A stretch of 47,459 bases of DNA from Bacilli bacterium (lineage in GTDB: Bacteria; Bacillota_I; Bacilli_A; ML615J-28; CAG-698): contig JAQUZE010000007.1 of the NCBI GenBank assembly GCA_028691515.1, positions 27,645-75,103 on the forward strand. Direction: 5' to 3'. A model generated the notes under the pieces. That model was not told where the DNA came from. It saw nothing but the letters and a program-made list of their open reading frames with translations, and ran no database searches. The position numbers and the translations under genes are program-made. Position 1 is the stretch's first letter. The number at the start of each line of letters is the position of its first letter. Below are positions 11,395 to 24,691 of the stretch, in pieces.

Positions 11395-12693
11395 TTGTTT
11401 AAGAAAAGTAGCGGTACTCTGATTCGTGAACATTCAGGACATAAAGGGTTATCTGAAAATAGCCCAATAGTTGAATTTCTGAAACCGAATTTTGTTTATT
11501 TTCCTTTAATGGAAAATAATTGTCCTTATGAAAGTTTAGTTAATGTTGGTGATAAAGTTAAGGTTGGACAACTGATTTCTATAAAAAGTGGTCGTTTTCC
11601 ATCATTTACTCATTCATCAGTTAGTGGAGAAGTAATTTCAATTGATAAAAAGATGTGGCATCCAAGTGGTAAAATGGTTCCAACAATTGAAATTAAAAAT
11701 GATCTTCAAGAAACAATGTTTGAAGAAATTAAAGATAATGATGTTTCTAATTTATCGAGTAAAGATATTATAAATATTGTAAAAAACTGTGGTGTTGTTG
11801 GTCTTGGCGGTGCCTGTTTTCCAACATATGTAAAATATAATCCTGACAATAATATTAATACAATTATTATTAATGCAGCAGAATGTGAACCATATATTAC
11901 TGCAGATTATGTGACGATGATTAATAATGTTAATGAATTAATTAGAGGTATTTCTTATATTATGAAAGCAAATAACGCCTCAAGAGGAGTTATTGCTGTT
12001 AAAAAATATCATACTGAACTTGTTGAACATTTACAAAAAAGTTTAGCAAATATTAATAACATTTCTTTATTTTTATTGGATAATGTATATCCTGCTGGTT
12101 GGGAAAAATATATTGTACAAAGAGTTCAAAAAAAGACTTATAAAGGTTTGCCAGCTGAAGTAGGAGCAGTTGTGAATAATGTTCAAACTGCTGTATCTGT
12201 TTGTCAAGCTGTTGAAAAAAATATGCCTTTGATTGAAAAAATAATCACCTTTACAGGTAAGGGTTTAAAAGAACCTAAAAATGTAAGAGTTAAAATTGGA
12301 TCATTAGTTAATGAAATAATTGATTTTATTGGTGGGTATATTGATGATTTAGAAGATGCTTATTTAATTGCTGGTGGACCAATGACTGGTAACGCAATTG
12401 TTTTTGACAATATGATTGCTGCTAAAATGTTAGGTTCTGTAATTGTAATGCCTAAGGAAAAACAAGAAGTAGAACTTCCTTGTATGGGCTGTGGAAAATG
12501 TACAGAAATTTGTCCGGTGTTTTTATCTCCTATTTTAATTAAAAATGCTTATGATGACAAAGATGTAGAAAAAATAATAAAATTAGATGCTAATCGTTGT
12601 ATGGCTTGTGGACTTTGTTCTTATGTTTGTCCATCTAGGATTGAACTTACTGATATAGTTACAAGAGCTAAAACGTTAGCTAATAAGAAATAG
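11395..12693 (+). CDS. rnfC: Rnf electron transport complex subunit C
   Basis: RnfC is the membrane-associated NADH/FMN and iron-sulfur subunit of the Rnf complex, which couples ferredoxin:NAD+ electron transfer to ion pumping. Seen here are the nucleotide-binding GVVGLGGACFPTYVK and INAAECEPYITADY, and near the C-terminus two four-cysteine clusters: CMGCGKCTEICP from C363 and CMACGLCSYVCP from C402. The N-terminal H-x-G-x-K-G-L-S segment is usual. Length (432) fits. The start is TTG at 11395, 8 bases after GGGAGG. It is the first of six genes in the order C-D-G-E-A-B, each within 10 bases of or overlapping the next. Confidence 0.97.
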   Translation: MFKKSSGTLIREHSGHKGLSENSPIVEFLKPNFVYFPLMENNCPYESLVNVGDKVKVGQLISIKSGRFPSFTHSSVSGEVISIDKKMWHPSGKMVPTIEIKNDLQETMFEEIKDNDVSNLSSKDIINIVKNCGVVGLGGACFPTYVKYNPDNNINTIIINAAECEPYITADYVTMINNVNELIRGISYIMKANNASRGVIAVKKYHTELVEHLQKSLANINNISLFLLDNVYPAGWEKYIVQRVQKKTYKGLPAEVGAVVNNVQTAVSVCQAVEKNMPLIEKIITFTGKGLKEPKNVRVKIGSLVNEIIDFIGGYIDDLEDAYLIAGGPMTGNAIVFDNMIAAKMLGSVIVMPKEKQEVELPCMGCGKCTEICPVFLSPILIKNAYDDKDVEKIIKLDANRCMACGLCSYVCPSRIELTDIVTRAKTLANKK

Positions 12694-12702
12694 GTGAAAT
12701 AA

Positions 12703-14991
12703 ATGAAAAATAAAAGATTTGCATTAGCAAAAGCTCCATTTATTAGAAGAGCTGACTCTACTTTAAGCACATCGCAAATGATGAAATATTTTGTGATGGC
12801 TTTAGTACCAATTATTTTATTTGCGTGGGTAAAAAATGGATTGTTACCATTTTTAGAAGTAGAAACTAAAAATTTTAGTAGTGTTTTAACTATGCTTTAT
12901 CCATTGTTTTTAGTATTTATTGGCGGATTTACTAGTTTTATTTCTGAATTTATTTATTTTAAATATATTAAAAAAACTGTAAATCCACTTATAGAAACTG
13001 GTAATTCTTTTGCAATTATTCCTGGATTATTATTAGGAATGATAGTATCTATTAATACTCCTTTATGGATATTAATAATAGGTGTATTATTTGCTACAAT
13101 TATTGGAAAATTATTATTTGGTGGATTTGGTAAAAATGTTTTTAATCCTGCTTTAGTAGGTTACTTATTTATTCAAACTGCATATTTTGGAGTTATTTCT
13201 AAAAATGGAGGATATTTAAATGGAAGTGAAGCAATTGGTTTGGATATTGTTAGTGGAGTTACTCCACTTGCAAATCTAACTGCAAATCCTTTAGGACATT
13301 TTGAGCAATTAGTTGCGCCTTATGGATCGTTAATGGATTTCTTTATTGGAACTATTCCAGGATCGCTTGCAGAAACTAGTGCGTTGTTATGTATACTTGC
13401 AGCTGCTTTCTTAATTTGGAAAAAAGTTATTAATTGGAGAATTCCTGTGATTTATGTTGGAACTGTTTTTGTTTTAACTTATATCATAGGTGCAGCTAAT
13501 GGTCATGCTACTGATTTATGGTATCCAACATTTGGAATCTTAAGTGGCGGGTTAATGTTTGGGGCTGTATTTATGGCAACTGAACCTGTTACATCACCTA
13601 GAACACCAAATGGTAAAATTTTATATGCTCTTTCTTTAGGAGCATTAACTATATTATTCCGTTATAAATCAAACTTCCCTGAAGGAGTGGCAACTTCAAT
13701 TTTAGCAATGAATTTACTTGTAATTATTTTTGATAATATTGCCAGTAGATTAAGAGTTAATCCAAAAATTAAACAAGTTGTATCAATTTATGCTATTTTT
13801 GGTCTTGTTTTAATTGGAATAAGTGCTTACGCTATAACTAGCGTTAAACCTGCTTTATTAAATTATTCTTATGAATCAAGTGAAGTAGATTATCAAACTT
13901 TAAATATTAAACATACAATCAAATATGGTAATCATCAAATGATTGTTGAAACTGATTTAGAAGGTGAAGTCATTGATGTTGATTTACAAGGCCAAACTTA
14001 TCTAAATATAGATGAAATAAAAACTAGCGAAAAGTTAGTTAATAATTATAAAATAATTGAAAATTATATTGAAAAAGCTTATCAAGATGATGATGGTAAT
14101 TACGTATTAATTATTAAGACAAAAGGATTTAAAAATGAATTAATTGAAACTAATGTAATTATTAATACTGAATTTCAAATAACAAGTTTTGTTTCCGATA
14201 TTTCTAATGAATCATATTCTACATATAATAGTGATAATGATCCTGCAAATGGTTGGGTAGAAGCTAATGGACATCCAGATAAAATTATTGGAGAAATAAT
14301 TGTAGCAGGTGAAACTAATTTAGATAAAATTAATCCAGTTAGTGGTGCTACTGTATCATCTAAAGCAATTATAAAAGCAGCACAACTTACATTTGGTTAT
14401 ATTAAGGCATTAAAATTAGATGAAGCATTTATTGGTGAATCACCTGCGGTTAAAGTAGATTATGTGGCAAGTTATTTTGATGTTCCAACAATGAGTTTTA
14501 AATATGAATTTAAAATTGGAGAAGAAGAATTTTTTGTTTTAACTAATAATGCATATGAAATACAATCATTTAGTAATGACGATTTAGATACTGAGATAAT
14601 TAGACCTGAAGTAGAGGCCCTTATAAGCTCTAAAAAAGTTAGAAATTATATTGTAGAAGAAACTATTGAAGGAGATAATTTAATTTTAGAAATTAAAACA
14701 CAAGGTTATGCTACAACATTAACATCTACTGTTACTATTTCTAAAACTAGCAAGCAAATTATATCTCTAGATGTTAATGCTAGCGATGAAACATATGATG
14801 AAGAATATAATCAAGGTTGGAATGCTGCAAATGGACATCCTGATGAATTGATTCCACCTCAAATTGTAGAACATCAAGGCGATTTATCACTTGTTAATCC
14901 TGTGAGTGGAGCAACAGTTACTTCTAATGCAATTAAAAAGGCTGCATTATTAGCAAATGAATATATAGAGGAGTTTAGTGAATTATGGTAA
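12703..14991 (+). CDS. rnfD: Rnf subunit D fused to two C-terminal FMN-binding domains
   Basis: Residues 1-~350 are RnfD, the multi-span membrane subunit that carries covalent FMN; the phosphothreonine-FMN site corresponds to S-G-V-T187-P-L (SGAT in many relatives). KNVFNPALVGY and ATEPVTSPRTPNG are family motifs. The ordinary protein would end near residue 350. Here a further membrane segment (~357-381) leads into ~380 residues with two FMN-binding repeats, each ending in N-P-V-S-G-A-T-V (T550 and T738) and each preceded by GW-x2-A-NGHPD. The added part looks like an RnfG (one helix plus FMN domain) with the FMN domain doubled. At 762 residues it is about twice the usual length. It overlaps rnfG by 7 bases. 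Confidence 0.93.
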   Translation: MKNKRFALAKAPFIRRADSTLSTSQMMKYFVMALVPIILFAWVKNGLLPFLEVETKNFSSVLTMLYPLFLVFIGGFTSFISEFIYFKYIKKTVNPLIETGNSFAIIPGLLLGMIVSINTPLWILIIGVLFATIIGKLLFGGFGKNVFNPALVGYLFIQTAYFGVISKNGGYLNGSEAIGLDIVSGVTPLANLTANPLGHFEQLVAPYGSLMDFFIGTIPGSLAETSALLCILAAAFLIWKKVINWRIPVIYVGTVFVLTYIIGAANGHATDLWYPTFGILSGGLMFGAVFMATEPVTSPRTPNGKILYALSLGALTILFRYKSNFPEGVATSILAMNLLVIIFDNIASRLRVNPKIKQVVSIYAIFGLVLIGISAYAITSVKPALLNYSYESSEVDYQTLNIKHTIKYGNHQMIVETDLEGEVIDVDLQGQTYLNIDEIKTSEKLVNNYKIIENYIEKAYQDDDGNYVLIIKTKGFKNELIETNVIINTEFQITSFVSDISNESYSTYNSDNDPANGWVEANGHPDKIIGEIIVAGETNLDKINPVSGATVSSKAIIKAAQLTFGYIKALKLDEAFIGESPAVKVDYVASYFDVPTMSFKYEFKIGEEEFFVLTNNAYEIQSFSNDDLDTEIIRPEVEALISSKKVRNYIVEETIEGDNLILEIKTQGYATTLTSTVTISKTSKQIISLDVNASDETYDEEYNQGWNAANGHPDELIPPQIVEHQGDLSLVNPVSGATVTSNAIKKAALLANEYIEEFSELW

Positions 14992-15566
14992 AAATGTCAA
15001 ATACACTTAAATATACAATTTTTCTAATTGTATTAGGTTTGATTAGTGGCGGATTACTAGCTTTTATTAATTCAATTACTGATCCAATTATTCAGGAAAG
15101 AAAAGAAAAGGAAATACAAGATAAATTAATTGATGCTTTTCCTGGTTTTTCATCAACAAAAGAAGTTACTTCTGAATTTGATGATTTAGGAAATAATATT
15201 GGAGCTATATATTTAGTTGGTGATGAAGATGGTAAATTATTAACTGTTGTTTATGAAGTATATGCAAATGGTTATGGTGGAAAGGTTGTAACGTTAATAG
15301 GATTTAATCCTGAGGGTAAAATAGTTAATGCTGTTGTTGCTGATGCAAGTACCGAAACAAAAGGATTTGGTTCTGAACTTATCGGCCATGATTTTAAAAT
15401 TAATGATTTAGAAGTTATAGATTTTGATTTTTTTAATAGTGCGCAAATTATATCTGGTGCCACAGTTTCATCAACTGCTGCTGGAACGGGTATTAACGCA
15501 GGTGTATATCATTTTAATCAAAATAAAGATGTACTAATTGAAATGGTGGTGAAAGCAAATGACTAA
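14985..15566 (+). CDS. rnfG: Rnf subunit G, FMN-binding
   Basis: RnfG has one N-terminal membrane helix (residues ~8-30) and an extracytoplasmic FMN domain with flavin bound covalently to Thr by an ApbE-type transferase. The site is S-G-A-T160-V-S-S, followed by TGINAGVYHF. GYGGKVVTLIGFNPEGKI and ETKGFGSEL are usual for the family. The 193 residues are normal. It starts inside the end of rnfD and overlaps rnfE by 8 bases. An alternative ATG lies at 14994. With the two domains on RnfD, the complex would offer up to three outward FMN domains. Confidence 0.96.
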   Translation: MVKMSNTLKYTIFLIVLGLISGGLLAFINSITDPIIQERKEKEIQDKLIDAFPGFSSTKEVTSEFDDLGNNIGAIYLVGDEDGKLLTVVYEVYANGYGGKVVTLIGFNPEGKIVNAVVADASTETKGFGSELIGHDFKINDLEVIDFDFFNSAQIISGATVSSTAAGTGINAGVYHFNQNKDVLIEMVVKAND

Positions 15567-16215
15567 ATCTCAAAATTTTTTAAAAGGAATTTGGAAAGAA
15601 AACCCTATTTTGGTTTCTGCCCTTGGGATGTGTCCAACACTAGCAATTACAACAAGTTTAGAAAATGCTTTGGGAATGGGAGCTGCAGTATTATTTGTAT
15701 TAGTACTTTCAAACTTAATCATTTCTTTAATAAGAAAAATTGTTCCTAGTCAAATTAGAATTCCTGTATATATTGTCGTTATTGCATCTTTAGTTACTAT
15801 TGTTGATATGATTATGGCTGCTTATCTTCCTGGAATTCATGCTTCACTTGGTATCTTTATTCCTTTGATTGTAGTTAATTGTATTATCTTAGGGAGAGCA
15901 GAGGCTTTTGCTTCAGAAAATAAACCTATTGATTCTGTTTTAGATGCTGTAGGTATGGCAATTGGTTATACTTTAGTAATAGCAGTTATTTCAATTATTC
16001 GTGAAGTTTTAGGGACAGGAACAATTACTGTCTGGAAAGAAATAGCTTTAACAATTAATCCAGATGGAAAATTTGATTTTTTCTCTAGTTTCTTTGTATC
16101 GCCAGCTGGTTCATTTATTGTAATTGGATTGCTTTTTGGTATATTTGCTATTATTAATAAAAAACGTGAAGAAAAGAAAAAATTAGCTTTAAAAGCAGAA
16201 AAGGTGAGTGAATAA
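15559..16215 (+). CDS. rnfE: Rnf subunit E
   Basis: RnfE is a six-helix membrane subunit, homologous to RnfA and inverted relative to it; the pair holds an iron-sulfur cluster in the membrane. The cluster-type cysteines are present in LGMC25PTL and VNC108IILG. The protein starts with the usual NPILVSALGMCP and ends in a Lys/Glu-rich tail. At 218 residues it is of normal size. GGTGGTGA precedes the ATG inside rnfG, and the stop overlaps the rnfA start by one base. Confidence 0.97.
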   Translation: MTKSQNFLKGIWKENPILVSALGMCPTLAITTSLENALGMGAAVLFVLVLSNLIISLIRKIVPSQIRIPVYIVVIASLVTIVDMIMAAYLPGIHASLGIFIPLIVVNCIILGRAEAFASENKPIDSVLDAVGMAIGYTLVIAVISIIREVLGTGTITVWKEIALTINPDGKFDFFSSFFVSPAGSFIVIGLLFGIFAIINKKREEKKKLALKAEKVSE

Positions 16216-16781
16216 TGGGACTTATTTCTATAGCATTTAGTGCAATTTTAGTTCAAAACGTTATTTTATCAAGATTTTTGGGAATTTGTCCTTTTCTAGG
16301 TGTTTCTAATAAATCAAAATCATCTATTGGTATGGGACTTGCAGTTGTTTTTGTAATAACACTTTCTTCTGTAGTTTCATGGTTAATATATTATTATTTG
16401 CTTGATGCATTTTCAATGACTTATATGAGAACTATAGTTTTCATATTGGTAATTGCGTCTTTAGTACAAATAATTGAAATGTTTTTAAAAAAATTTATAC
16501 CATCTCTTTATAAAGCATTAGGTATATATTTACCTTTAATCACTACAAATTGTGCAGTTTTAGGAGTTGCGACTTTAAGTATAGATAATAGTTATAATTT
16601 ACTTGAAACTTTAACTTTTGCTTTTGCATCGTCTGTTGGGTTCTTACTTGTAATTTATATTTTTTCAACATTAAGAGAAAAAATGAATAGAACTGAGAAT
16701 AGCTTTTCTGGAATTCCAATTGCTTTAATTACTGCTGGAATCATGGCAATGATATTTGCAAGATTTGCGGGGGTAATTTAA
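16215..16781 (+). CDS. rnfA: Rnf subunit A
   Basis: RnfA is the partner of RnfE in the membrane core. Six hydrophobic segments and the motifs VQNVILSRFLGIC25PFLGVS and TTNC113AVLGVA are present; both cysteines fit the intramembrane iron-sulfur cluster. At 188 residues it is typical. AAGGTGAG lies upstream in the end of rnfE. The TAA is followed directly by the rnfB ATG. Confidence 0.97.
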   Translation: MGLISIAFSAILVQNVILSRFLGICPFLGVSNKSKSSIGMGLAVVFVITLSSVVSWLIYYYLLDAFSMTYMRTIVFILVIASLVQIIEMFLKKFIPSLYKALGIYLPLITTNCAVLGVATLSIDNSYNLLETLTFAFASSVGFLLVIYIFSTLREKMNRTENSFSGIPIALITAGIMAMIFARFAGVI

Positions 16782-17096
16782 ATGATTATTTTGAGTGCTT
16801 TTACTATCTATGTTTTGCCAGCTTTAGTTTTAGCTGGTGTGGGGGCATTATTTGGGTTATTTATTGGTATTGCTGCAAAATATTTTTACGTTAAAGAAGA
16901 TAATAGAATTCAAGAAGTTCAAGATATGTTGCCAGGATATAATTGTGGAGCTTGTGGTTATCCAGGTTGTTCTGGTCTTGCTAAGGCGATTGTTGAAGAT
17001 GGTGTAAATCCTAGATTGTGTAAACCAGGCAAACAAGAAATGGTTGAAGAAATTAAAAAATATATGTTAGAACATAATGGAAATGAAAACGATTAA
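16782..17096 (+). CDS. rnfB: Rnf subunit B, short form without ferredoxin domains
   Basis: RnfB normally takes electrons from ferredoxin. This protein has the N-terminal helix (~residues 5-30) and the 4Fe-4S domain N-C55-G-A-C58-G-Y-P-G-C63 with C80 in NPRLCKPG, but ends at residue 104. Usual forms run to ~190 residues or much more and carry at least one C-terminal 2[4Fe-4S] ferredoxin module. The 90 bases after the stop encode no Cys-rich sequence in any frame, so this is not a recent frameshift. The end (KKYMLEHNGNEND) looks like a settled C-terminus. Electrons may enter through RnfC or a separate ferredoxin, such as the one at 24524-24691. Confidence 0.92.
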   Translation: MIILSAFTIYVLPALVLAGVGALFGLFIGIAAKYFYVKEDNRIQEVQDMLPGYNCGACGYPGCSGLAKAIVEDGVNPRLCKPGKQEMVEEIKKYMLEHNGNEND

Positions 17097-17186: not shown

Positions 17187-18455
17187 ATGTTGAAAAATTT
17201 CGGAAAATTAATTACAGTACTTGTAATAGCATTTTCTCTATTTGTATTAGTTGGTTGTACTAAAGAAGAAACAATTTCTTTTGCTGATGAAAATTTAACT
17301 ATGGTTGTTGGAGATGAAGAAACTCTTGCTCCAGTATTAAGCGATGAAGCTTTAGAAGTAGTATATTCTGCTGTACCAGCTGACGCTGTTACATTTGATG
17401 GTAGTAAAATTACTGCTGTAAAAGCTGGAACTGTTACAGTTACAGCAACTATTAAAGATACAAAAATATCTGCAACACTTACAGTAACAATTACTGAACC
17501 TGTTGTAAAAACTTATGCTGCTGATGGAGTATATACTGCATTTGAAGCAGGCGACAATCATGGAGCGCCAATGGTAACTACAGTTTCTGTTACTATTGCT
17601 GATGATGAAATCGTAAGTTTCTTTATTGATTGTGTTCAATCTACAGCTGTAAAAACTGAGGAAGTTGTTACTGATTACAAATTTAATGAAAAATCTAAAA
17701 AAGAGTTAGGATATCTTTATGGAATGCATAATACACCTAACGCAGAATTTGAATATGAAAGACAAGATCTTACAACAACTGAAGGACTTGCTGCATATGA
17801 AGCATATTTAGAAGAATCAGGAAAATTAGAATGGTTTGAACAAGCTGCTTTAATTGAAGCTCATTTTGTTGCTAATGGAACTACATTAGAACTTGATGAA
17901 ACAACTGAAGCAATTACTAATGTTGCAGGCGTTACTGTTAAAGATGGAAGTTATTCAAAACTTGCAGCTGAAGCTGTTCAAAATGCAATAGATGGAAAAG
18001 TAATTTCAGTTATGGCATCTGGTAATCATGACATAATTTGGGCTGAAGGAACTGTAAATGCTGAAGGAAGTTTAACAGAATTAGAGTTAAACACACTACA
18101 AGGCAGAATGGTTGAAGGCGCTTATGCTTGGGATGCAAAGAACAAGCAAGAAAAAGGTTATTTATATGGAATGCATAACTCACCAAATGCTGAGTTAGAA
18201 TATGAAAAACAAGATCTTACAACAACTGAAGGACTTGCTGCTTATAAGGCATATCTTGAAGAAGCTGGTAAATTAGAATGGTTTGAACAAGTTGAACTAA
18301 TTACTGATTATGTTTTAGAAAATGGAGTTGCTGGCTTAGTTCTTGAAGGTACTAAATTAGATGGATCTGTTGAAGCATTATCTGGAGTTTCAATAACTGC
18401 AATAGGTTATGTAACTGTTCTTAATGCATTATATACAGCGTTTCCTAATGCATAA
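17187..18455 (+). CDS. Surface lipoprotein with Big2-like and two degenerate FMN-binding-like units
   Basis: A signal peptide with lipobox LVGC (C24) anchors this 422-residue protein on the outer membrane face. Residues ~30-107 resemble a bacterial Ig-like (Big2) domain. Two units follow, each with G-Y-L-Y-G-M-H-N, a 45-residue near-duplicate ending in EWFEQ, and a closing motif like the FMN attachment site: V-A-G-V-T250-V and L-S-G-V-S402-I in place of SGAT-[ST]. From memory, the YGM...EWFEQ pattern recalls the PplA/cAD1-precursor group of extracellular flavolipoproteins; that link needs a search. AAAGGAGG precedes the ATG. It directly follows rnfB, which supports a role in electron transfer at the surface. 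Flavin loading is uncertain because both motifs are altered. Confidence 0.8.
   Translation: MLKNFGKLITVLVIAFSLFVLVGCTKEETISFADENLTMVVGDEETLAPVLSDEALEVVYSAVPADAVTFDGSKITAVKAGTVTVTATIKDTKISATLTVTITEPVVKTYAADGVYTAFEAGDNHGAPMVTTVSVTIADDEIVSFFIDCVQSTAVKTEEVVTDYKFNEKSKKELGYLYGMHNTPNAEFEYERQDLTTTEGLAAYEAYLEESGKLEWFEQAALIEAHFVANGTTLELDETTEAITNVAGVTVKDGSYSKLAAEAVQNAIDGKVISVMASGNHDIIWAEGTVNAEGSLTELELNTLQGRMVEGAYAWDAKNKQEKGYLYGMHNSPNAELEYEKQDLTTTEGLAAYKAYLEEAGKLEWFEQVELITDYVLENGVAGLVLEGTKLDGSVEALSGVSITAIGYVTVLNALYTAFPNA
17709..18290 (+). repeat. In-frame duplication in the lipoprotein gene (17709-17843 and 18156-18290)
   Basis: Two 135-base copies lie 447 bases apart and in frame. Their translations agree at 40 of 45 residues, and a block around the codons for QDLTTTEGLAAY is nearly identical in DNA. 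The rest of the two units is much less alike, so this block is either recently converted or tightly constrained. Confidence 0.9.
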
Positions 18456-24523: not shown

Positions 24524-24691
24524 TTATCTTTCTAAGATAGCATCAGTAGGACAAACTTCTTGGCATGCTCCACAATCAATACATGCATCCTCATCGATAA
24601 CATAAATTTCACCTTCTGAAATACAATCAACTGGGCACTCAGCTTGGCAACTTCCACACGCAATACAAAGATCTGTAATATATCTTGGCAT
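24524..24691 (-). CDS. 2[4Fe-4S] ferredoxin
   Basis: A 55-residue clostridial-type ferredoxin with two C-x2-C-x2-C-x3-CP motifs: CIACGSCQAECP and CIDCGACQEVCP. It is a soluble low-potential electron carrier. The start is ATG at 24691 with AAAGGAGG 7 bases upstream; a longer in-frame start would add 20 unrelated residues through the promoter. Its own promoter and terminator show it is monocistronic. It is a natural partner for the Rnf complex at 11395-17096, whose RnfB lacks ferredoxin domains. Confidence 0.96.
   Translation of the reverse strand: MPRYITDLCIACGSCQAECPVDCISEGEIYVIDEDACIDCGACQEVCPTDAILER

Follow-up and report, generated by a model that had tools for sequence, protein, structure and literature searches.

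The window, that is, the whole stretch of 47,459 nucleotides analyzed here, harbors an rnf operon on the plus strand with the gene order rnfC-rnfD-rnfG-rnfE-rnfA-rnfB, and all six subunits (RnfABCDEG) were matched by NCBIfam and Pfam models. The first gene, rnfC (11395-12693, +), encodes a protein of 432 aa with an NADH/FMN domain and two [4Fe-4S] motifs; its Complex1_51K, RnfC_N and SLBB domains, together with the two C-x2-C-x2-C-x3-C motifs, set RnfC apart from NqrA. It is followed by rnfD (12703-14991, +; 762 aa), in which the RnfD core continues into an extra predicted membrane helix and a fused pair of FMN_bind repeats (SGAT motifs at 547 and 735), and by rnfG (14985-15566, +), whose product is an FMN_bind protein with SGAT at residue 157. 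The ligands of the membrane [2Fe-2S] cluster are found in the products of rnfE (15559-16215, +; Cys25 and Cys108) and rnfA (16215-16781, +; Cys25 and Cys113), at positions identical to those of the ligands in Acetobacterium woodii (PMC11889175). The cofactor ligands of the subunits other than RnfB are thus all kept, including the RnfA and RnfE cysteines, the RnfC clusters and the SGAT of RnfG. A Na+-NQR was considered and rejected, as NqrF, the NADH entry subunit with its FAD/[2Fe-2S], is replaced by RnfB in the operon, and both clusters are kept in RnfC, whereas NqrA has none. Judged from its genes, the locus encodes an entire Rnf complex (ferredoxin:NAD+ oxidoreductase) with a minimal RnfB.

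The last gene, rnfB (16782-17096, +), abuts rnfA with zero gap and encodes a protein of 104 aa (11.3 kDa) with the features of an RnfB, namely an N-terminal membrane helix, which is the only one, and an FdI domain (Pfam FeS) with four cysteines. These cysteines (55, 58, 63 and 80; C-x2-C-x4-C-x16-C) are the ligands of one [4Fe-4S] site. FeS (PF04060, residues 50-82) is the sole Pfam domain, and the C-terminal Fer4, ferredoxin or polyferredoxin modules, with two to seven clusters, are absent by the Pfam analysis; such modules are frequent in RnfB but do not define it, since the RnfB of Thermotoga maritima is without them too. Consistently, only positions 7-88 of the 190 positions of the RnfB subfamily model TIGR01944 are covered, and the FdI domain aligns with residues 5-83 of the Clostridium tetanomorphum RnfB in the solved complex 7zc6 (E=1e-15). 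The Pfam and TIGR01944 matches and the cysteine positions therefore bear out the original prediction that RnfB ends, at 104 residues, after its single cluster.

When the whole window was scanned in all six frames, no remnant of a ferredoxin motif turned up between rnfB and the next gene, in agreement with the earlier claim that the ferredoxin modules are missing and have left no trace downstream. True C-x2-C-x2-C-x3-C motifs are confined to RnfC, with two, and a free ferredoxin (24524-24691, minus strand), also with two; one further match, at 12180-12212, is a chance occurrence, out of frame inside rnfC. The source genome (1.23 Mb, 95% complete) contains no second rnfB, which had been named as a finding that could overturn the prediction; the remaining hits of the RnfB model fall on Fer4 domains in other proteins. 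Within the family, rnfB was found in 22 of 28 genomes, and in all 22 it is short, with open frames of 99-133 aa, so that the short form proved to be conserved among related genomes. In an alignment of RnfB from 18 relatives, every protein retains the four FdI cysteines and has a short helix at the C-terminus. An artifact of sequencing or assembly, or the recent decay of a longer rnfB into a truncated pseudogene, would account for the short length, which is the one observation in its favor; however, a similar length and C-terminal helix recur in the 22 family genomes and in most of the class, and a remnant downstream is missing. A frameshift or pseudogene is ruled out by this conservation, and we assign such an origin a negligible probability. 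Because of the family-wide conservation and the lack of a second rnfB, the short RnfB is judged to be real and old.

The short form extends well beyond this family. In the order, one family has short RnfB throughout and another is mixed, and in a class-wide sample the RnfB frames are short nearly everywhere. In the phylum sample, 125 of 392 genomes have the domain; by our count from the table, approximately 119 of these have short RnfB, and the non-short ones comprise four long proteins (265-292 aa) and two of 183-187 aa with a second FdI. Named hosts of short RnfB include Erysipelotrichaceae, Solobacterium, an Acholeplasma sp. and two Thermotogota. In these samples, short RnfB is thus the normal form in the Bacilli class and not a special event of the source genome. 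Other Bacilli with short RnfB (Erysipelotrichaceae, Solobacterium, Acholeplasma and uncultured lines) share with the window the one-cluster RnfB and the type of RnfC tail, while the RnfD extension and the flanking lipoprotein are variable among them. Three genomes of one family of the class (G053, G087 and G111 in f13) have three short RnfB genes each and probably carry several rnf operons. In one Bacilli family (L137-L140), the membrane anchor is followed by FdI without Fer4, as in the window, but a second FdI lies behind the first, giving proteins of 183-194 aa; this tandem architecture is not mentioned in the cited Rnf literature.

The Rnf of the window resembles the solved complexes of C. 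tetanomorphum and A. woodii in its six subunits, in the RnfA and RnfE cysteines and in an FdI (B8) with one [4Fe-4S] cluster; however, the C-terminal polyferredoxin of those RnfB proteins, with five further clusters in C. tetanomorphum and seven in A. woodii (PMC12174285), is absent. With the Rnf of Thermotoga maritima it shares the order rnfCDGEAB and a one-cluster RnfB of approximately 100 aa, although T. maritima belongs to another phylum and the two Thermotogota loci examined here sit in the tree among long-RnfB operons, apart from those of Bacilli, with a single origin of the short forms not rejected. The T. maritima RnfB has a mass of 10.56 kDa and one predicted cluster in an operon rnfCDGEAB (PMC7414866), and was described in the C. 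tetanomorphum study as the FdI domain alone (PMC9588780). Membranes of T. maritima reduced NAD+ with ferredoxin from Clostridium pasteurianum (PMC7414866), and the purified complex oxidized ferredoxin, reduced NAD+ and transported Na+ (PMC7414866; Kuhns et al. 2020). This published one-cluster Rnf contradicts the expectation that Rnf function should be altered by the truncation, and the short form is normal in the class. Since nearly all class relatives are short and an equally short pump in T. maritima runs on ferredoxin, the Rnf of the window is, on this comparison, best read as an ordinary minimal version and not as a broken or rewired one.

We consider it probable that the operon encodes a complete Rnf with a minimal RnfB, in which ferredoxin docks on FdI, FdI shuttles to RnfA/E, NAD+ is reduced and ions are pumped. 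RnfB would be reduced to a membrane anchor and a mobile one-cluster FdI. The PFOR of the genome is one enzyme that could reduce a soluble two-cluster ferredoxin, which would dock directly on FdI; FdI would then swing to the [2Fe-2S] cluster shared between RnfA and RnfE; from there, electrons would continue through RnfG, RnfD and RnfC to NAD+ with ion pumping, where the direction of flow, as well as the ion pumped in the source organism, is what we infer. In A. woodii, the route leads from the polyferredoxin to the mobile one-cluster domain and on to the RnfA/E [2Fe-2S] cluster (PMC11889175). FdI would thus serve as docking site and shuttle in one, and the polyferredoxin tail found in other RnfB proteins would be an optional addition on the input side rather than the essential point of entry. 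The original prediction had left two options, another donor or direct docking of a separate ferredoxin; the latter is the better supported and in our analysis the most likely, whereas the former fares poorly given the intact FdI cysteines and ligands. Docking on FdI is also the simplest mechanism in view of the T. maritima precedent, the intact downstream ligands and the presence of genes for PFOR, ApbE and an acidic ferredoxin. Both PFOR and ApbE are encoded in the source genome, and the free ferredoxin of the window (24524-24691, -; 55 aa, two clusters, pI 4.05) is likely the electron donor to RnfB.

Another way to compensate for the missing modules would be a dedicated ferredoxin-like subunit, encoded elsewhere and bound to RnfC/RnfB as a fixed substitute. 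Several free Fer4 proteins in the genome, including the 55-aa protein of the window and one of 79 aa, could be candidates, and the RnfC of A. woodii does hold the polyferredoxin part (PMC11889175). However, no replacement Fer4 gene was found in or adjoining the rnf operon; the 79-aa protein, an oxidoreductase delta-type ferredoxin, lies beside 2-oxoacid oxidoreductase genes; the T. maritima Rnf works with a foreign ferredoxin (PMC7414866); and short-RnfB operons show changes in the RnfC helix to which such a module would attach. We therefore regard a dedicated subunit as unlikely. We give slightly less credence still to the idea that a different donor, such as NADH at RnfC, supplies the electrons, which would reach extracytoplasmic acceptors through the FMN_bind repeats of RnfD and the lipoprotein, while RnfB would be vestigial or run backwards. 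The extra membrane helix and two SGAT-bearing repeats of RnfD and the presence of ApbE fit this idea, and a branching of electrons to the outside has been proposed for multi-flavinylated Rnf complexes (PMC8238504). On the other hand, the four FdI cysteines invariant in 18 relatives and the intact RnfA/E ligands and RnfC clusters speak against it, and an SGAT-bearing RnfD extension is missing from most of the class's short-RnfB operons, showing that the two traits are not tied. An outward electron route could be compatible with normal Rnf activity.

Two sequence correlates accompany the short form. The fourth FdI cysteine is followed by K/R in 90% of the 41 short RnfB proteins from Bacilli, compared with 11% of 74 long ones, and position +4 from this cysteine is K/R in 71% and 4%, respectively, and R in both Thermotogota; the resulting motif is C-K-P-x-K in the short Bacilli forms and C-L/I-P-G-R in the two Thermotogota. 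Where two FdI domains stand in tandem, the inner one has C-T-P-G and the outer one C-R-P-L, which would place the basic residue on the domain facing ferredoxin. The basic patch is only local, as the soluble part of the window RnfB is acidic overall (pI 4.9), a property that does not per se favor the binding of an acidic ferredoxin. In RnfC, 13 columns distinguish the Bacilli short-RnfB operons from the long-RnfB ones; four of these are changed in Thermotogota too, and three of the four fall in the C-terminal helix (Fisher p=0.014), at residues 420, 422 and 426 of the window RnfC, whose helix (SRIELTD) is of the short-RnfB type. In A. woodii, it is this C-terminal helix of RnfC that mediates polyferredoxin binding (PMC11889175). 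The RnfC tail is not shorter in short-RnfB operons (median 22 vs 24 residues), and it is in composition rather than length that the two groups differ. Loss of contact with the polyferredoxin, along with a new patch for docking, would fit the basic motif and the helix changes; both patterns were spotted post hoc, without prior prediction, and derive from a single large clade of Bacilli plus two loci of Thermotogota, that is, approximately two evolutionary events. The more specific proposal of a Bacilli-wide minimal Rnf branch, in which FdI serves as the docking site through a basic C-[K/R]-P-x-[K/R] patch and the RnfC helix has been retuned, with a similar second change in Thermotogota, is offered only tentatively and may well prove wrong.

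The history of these operons was approached with a tree built from 87 operons on an alignment of 1148 columns, in which RnfC, D, E and A were concatenated; it was calculated by a quick method and is unrooted, so that gain and loss are not separable in it. The short forms of Bacilli fall outside a fully supported group containing all long forms; the same group includes both short forms of Thermotogota. Constraining all short forms together cost 35 log units, and a single origin was not rejected (AU p=0.08); the tree nevertheless leads us to favor a second, independent origin of the Thermotogota short RnfB. The long-RnfB operons of two Bacilli families (L126-L129, L135 and L136) nest among Clostridia, which suggests that they replaced or were added to the resident gene set by transfer of the whole operon.

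In the cited Rnf literature, the one-cluster RnfB is a peculiarity of T. maritima, whereas it is normal here across a Gram-positive class; the polyferredoxin tail of the textbook Rnf would thereby become an optional extension, and the short-RnfB Bacilli may offer a natural minimal system for locating the site of ferredoxin docking. Only the broad occurrence of the short form in Bacilli and its two correlates, the basic motif and the RnfC helix, go beyond that literature.

Two other features of the locus deserve a brief description. The FMN_bind repeats of RnfD are predicted to lie outside the cell and might branch electrons to outside acceptors; the extension varies among relatives, which have one repeat, none, or similar sequence elsewhere near rnfD. 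Downstream of and next to rnfB lies a lipoprotein gene (17187-18455, +), whose product has no Pfam match above the cut-off. It contains two related stretches with SGAT-like ends (AGVT and SGVS), which to the eye resemble degenerate FMN_bind domains. In seven relatives a homologue of this lipoprotein is encoded close to rnf, in duplicate in two of them, and one homologue carries Big_2 domains.
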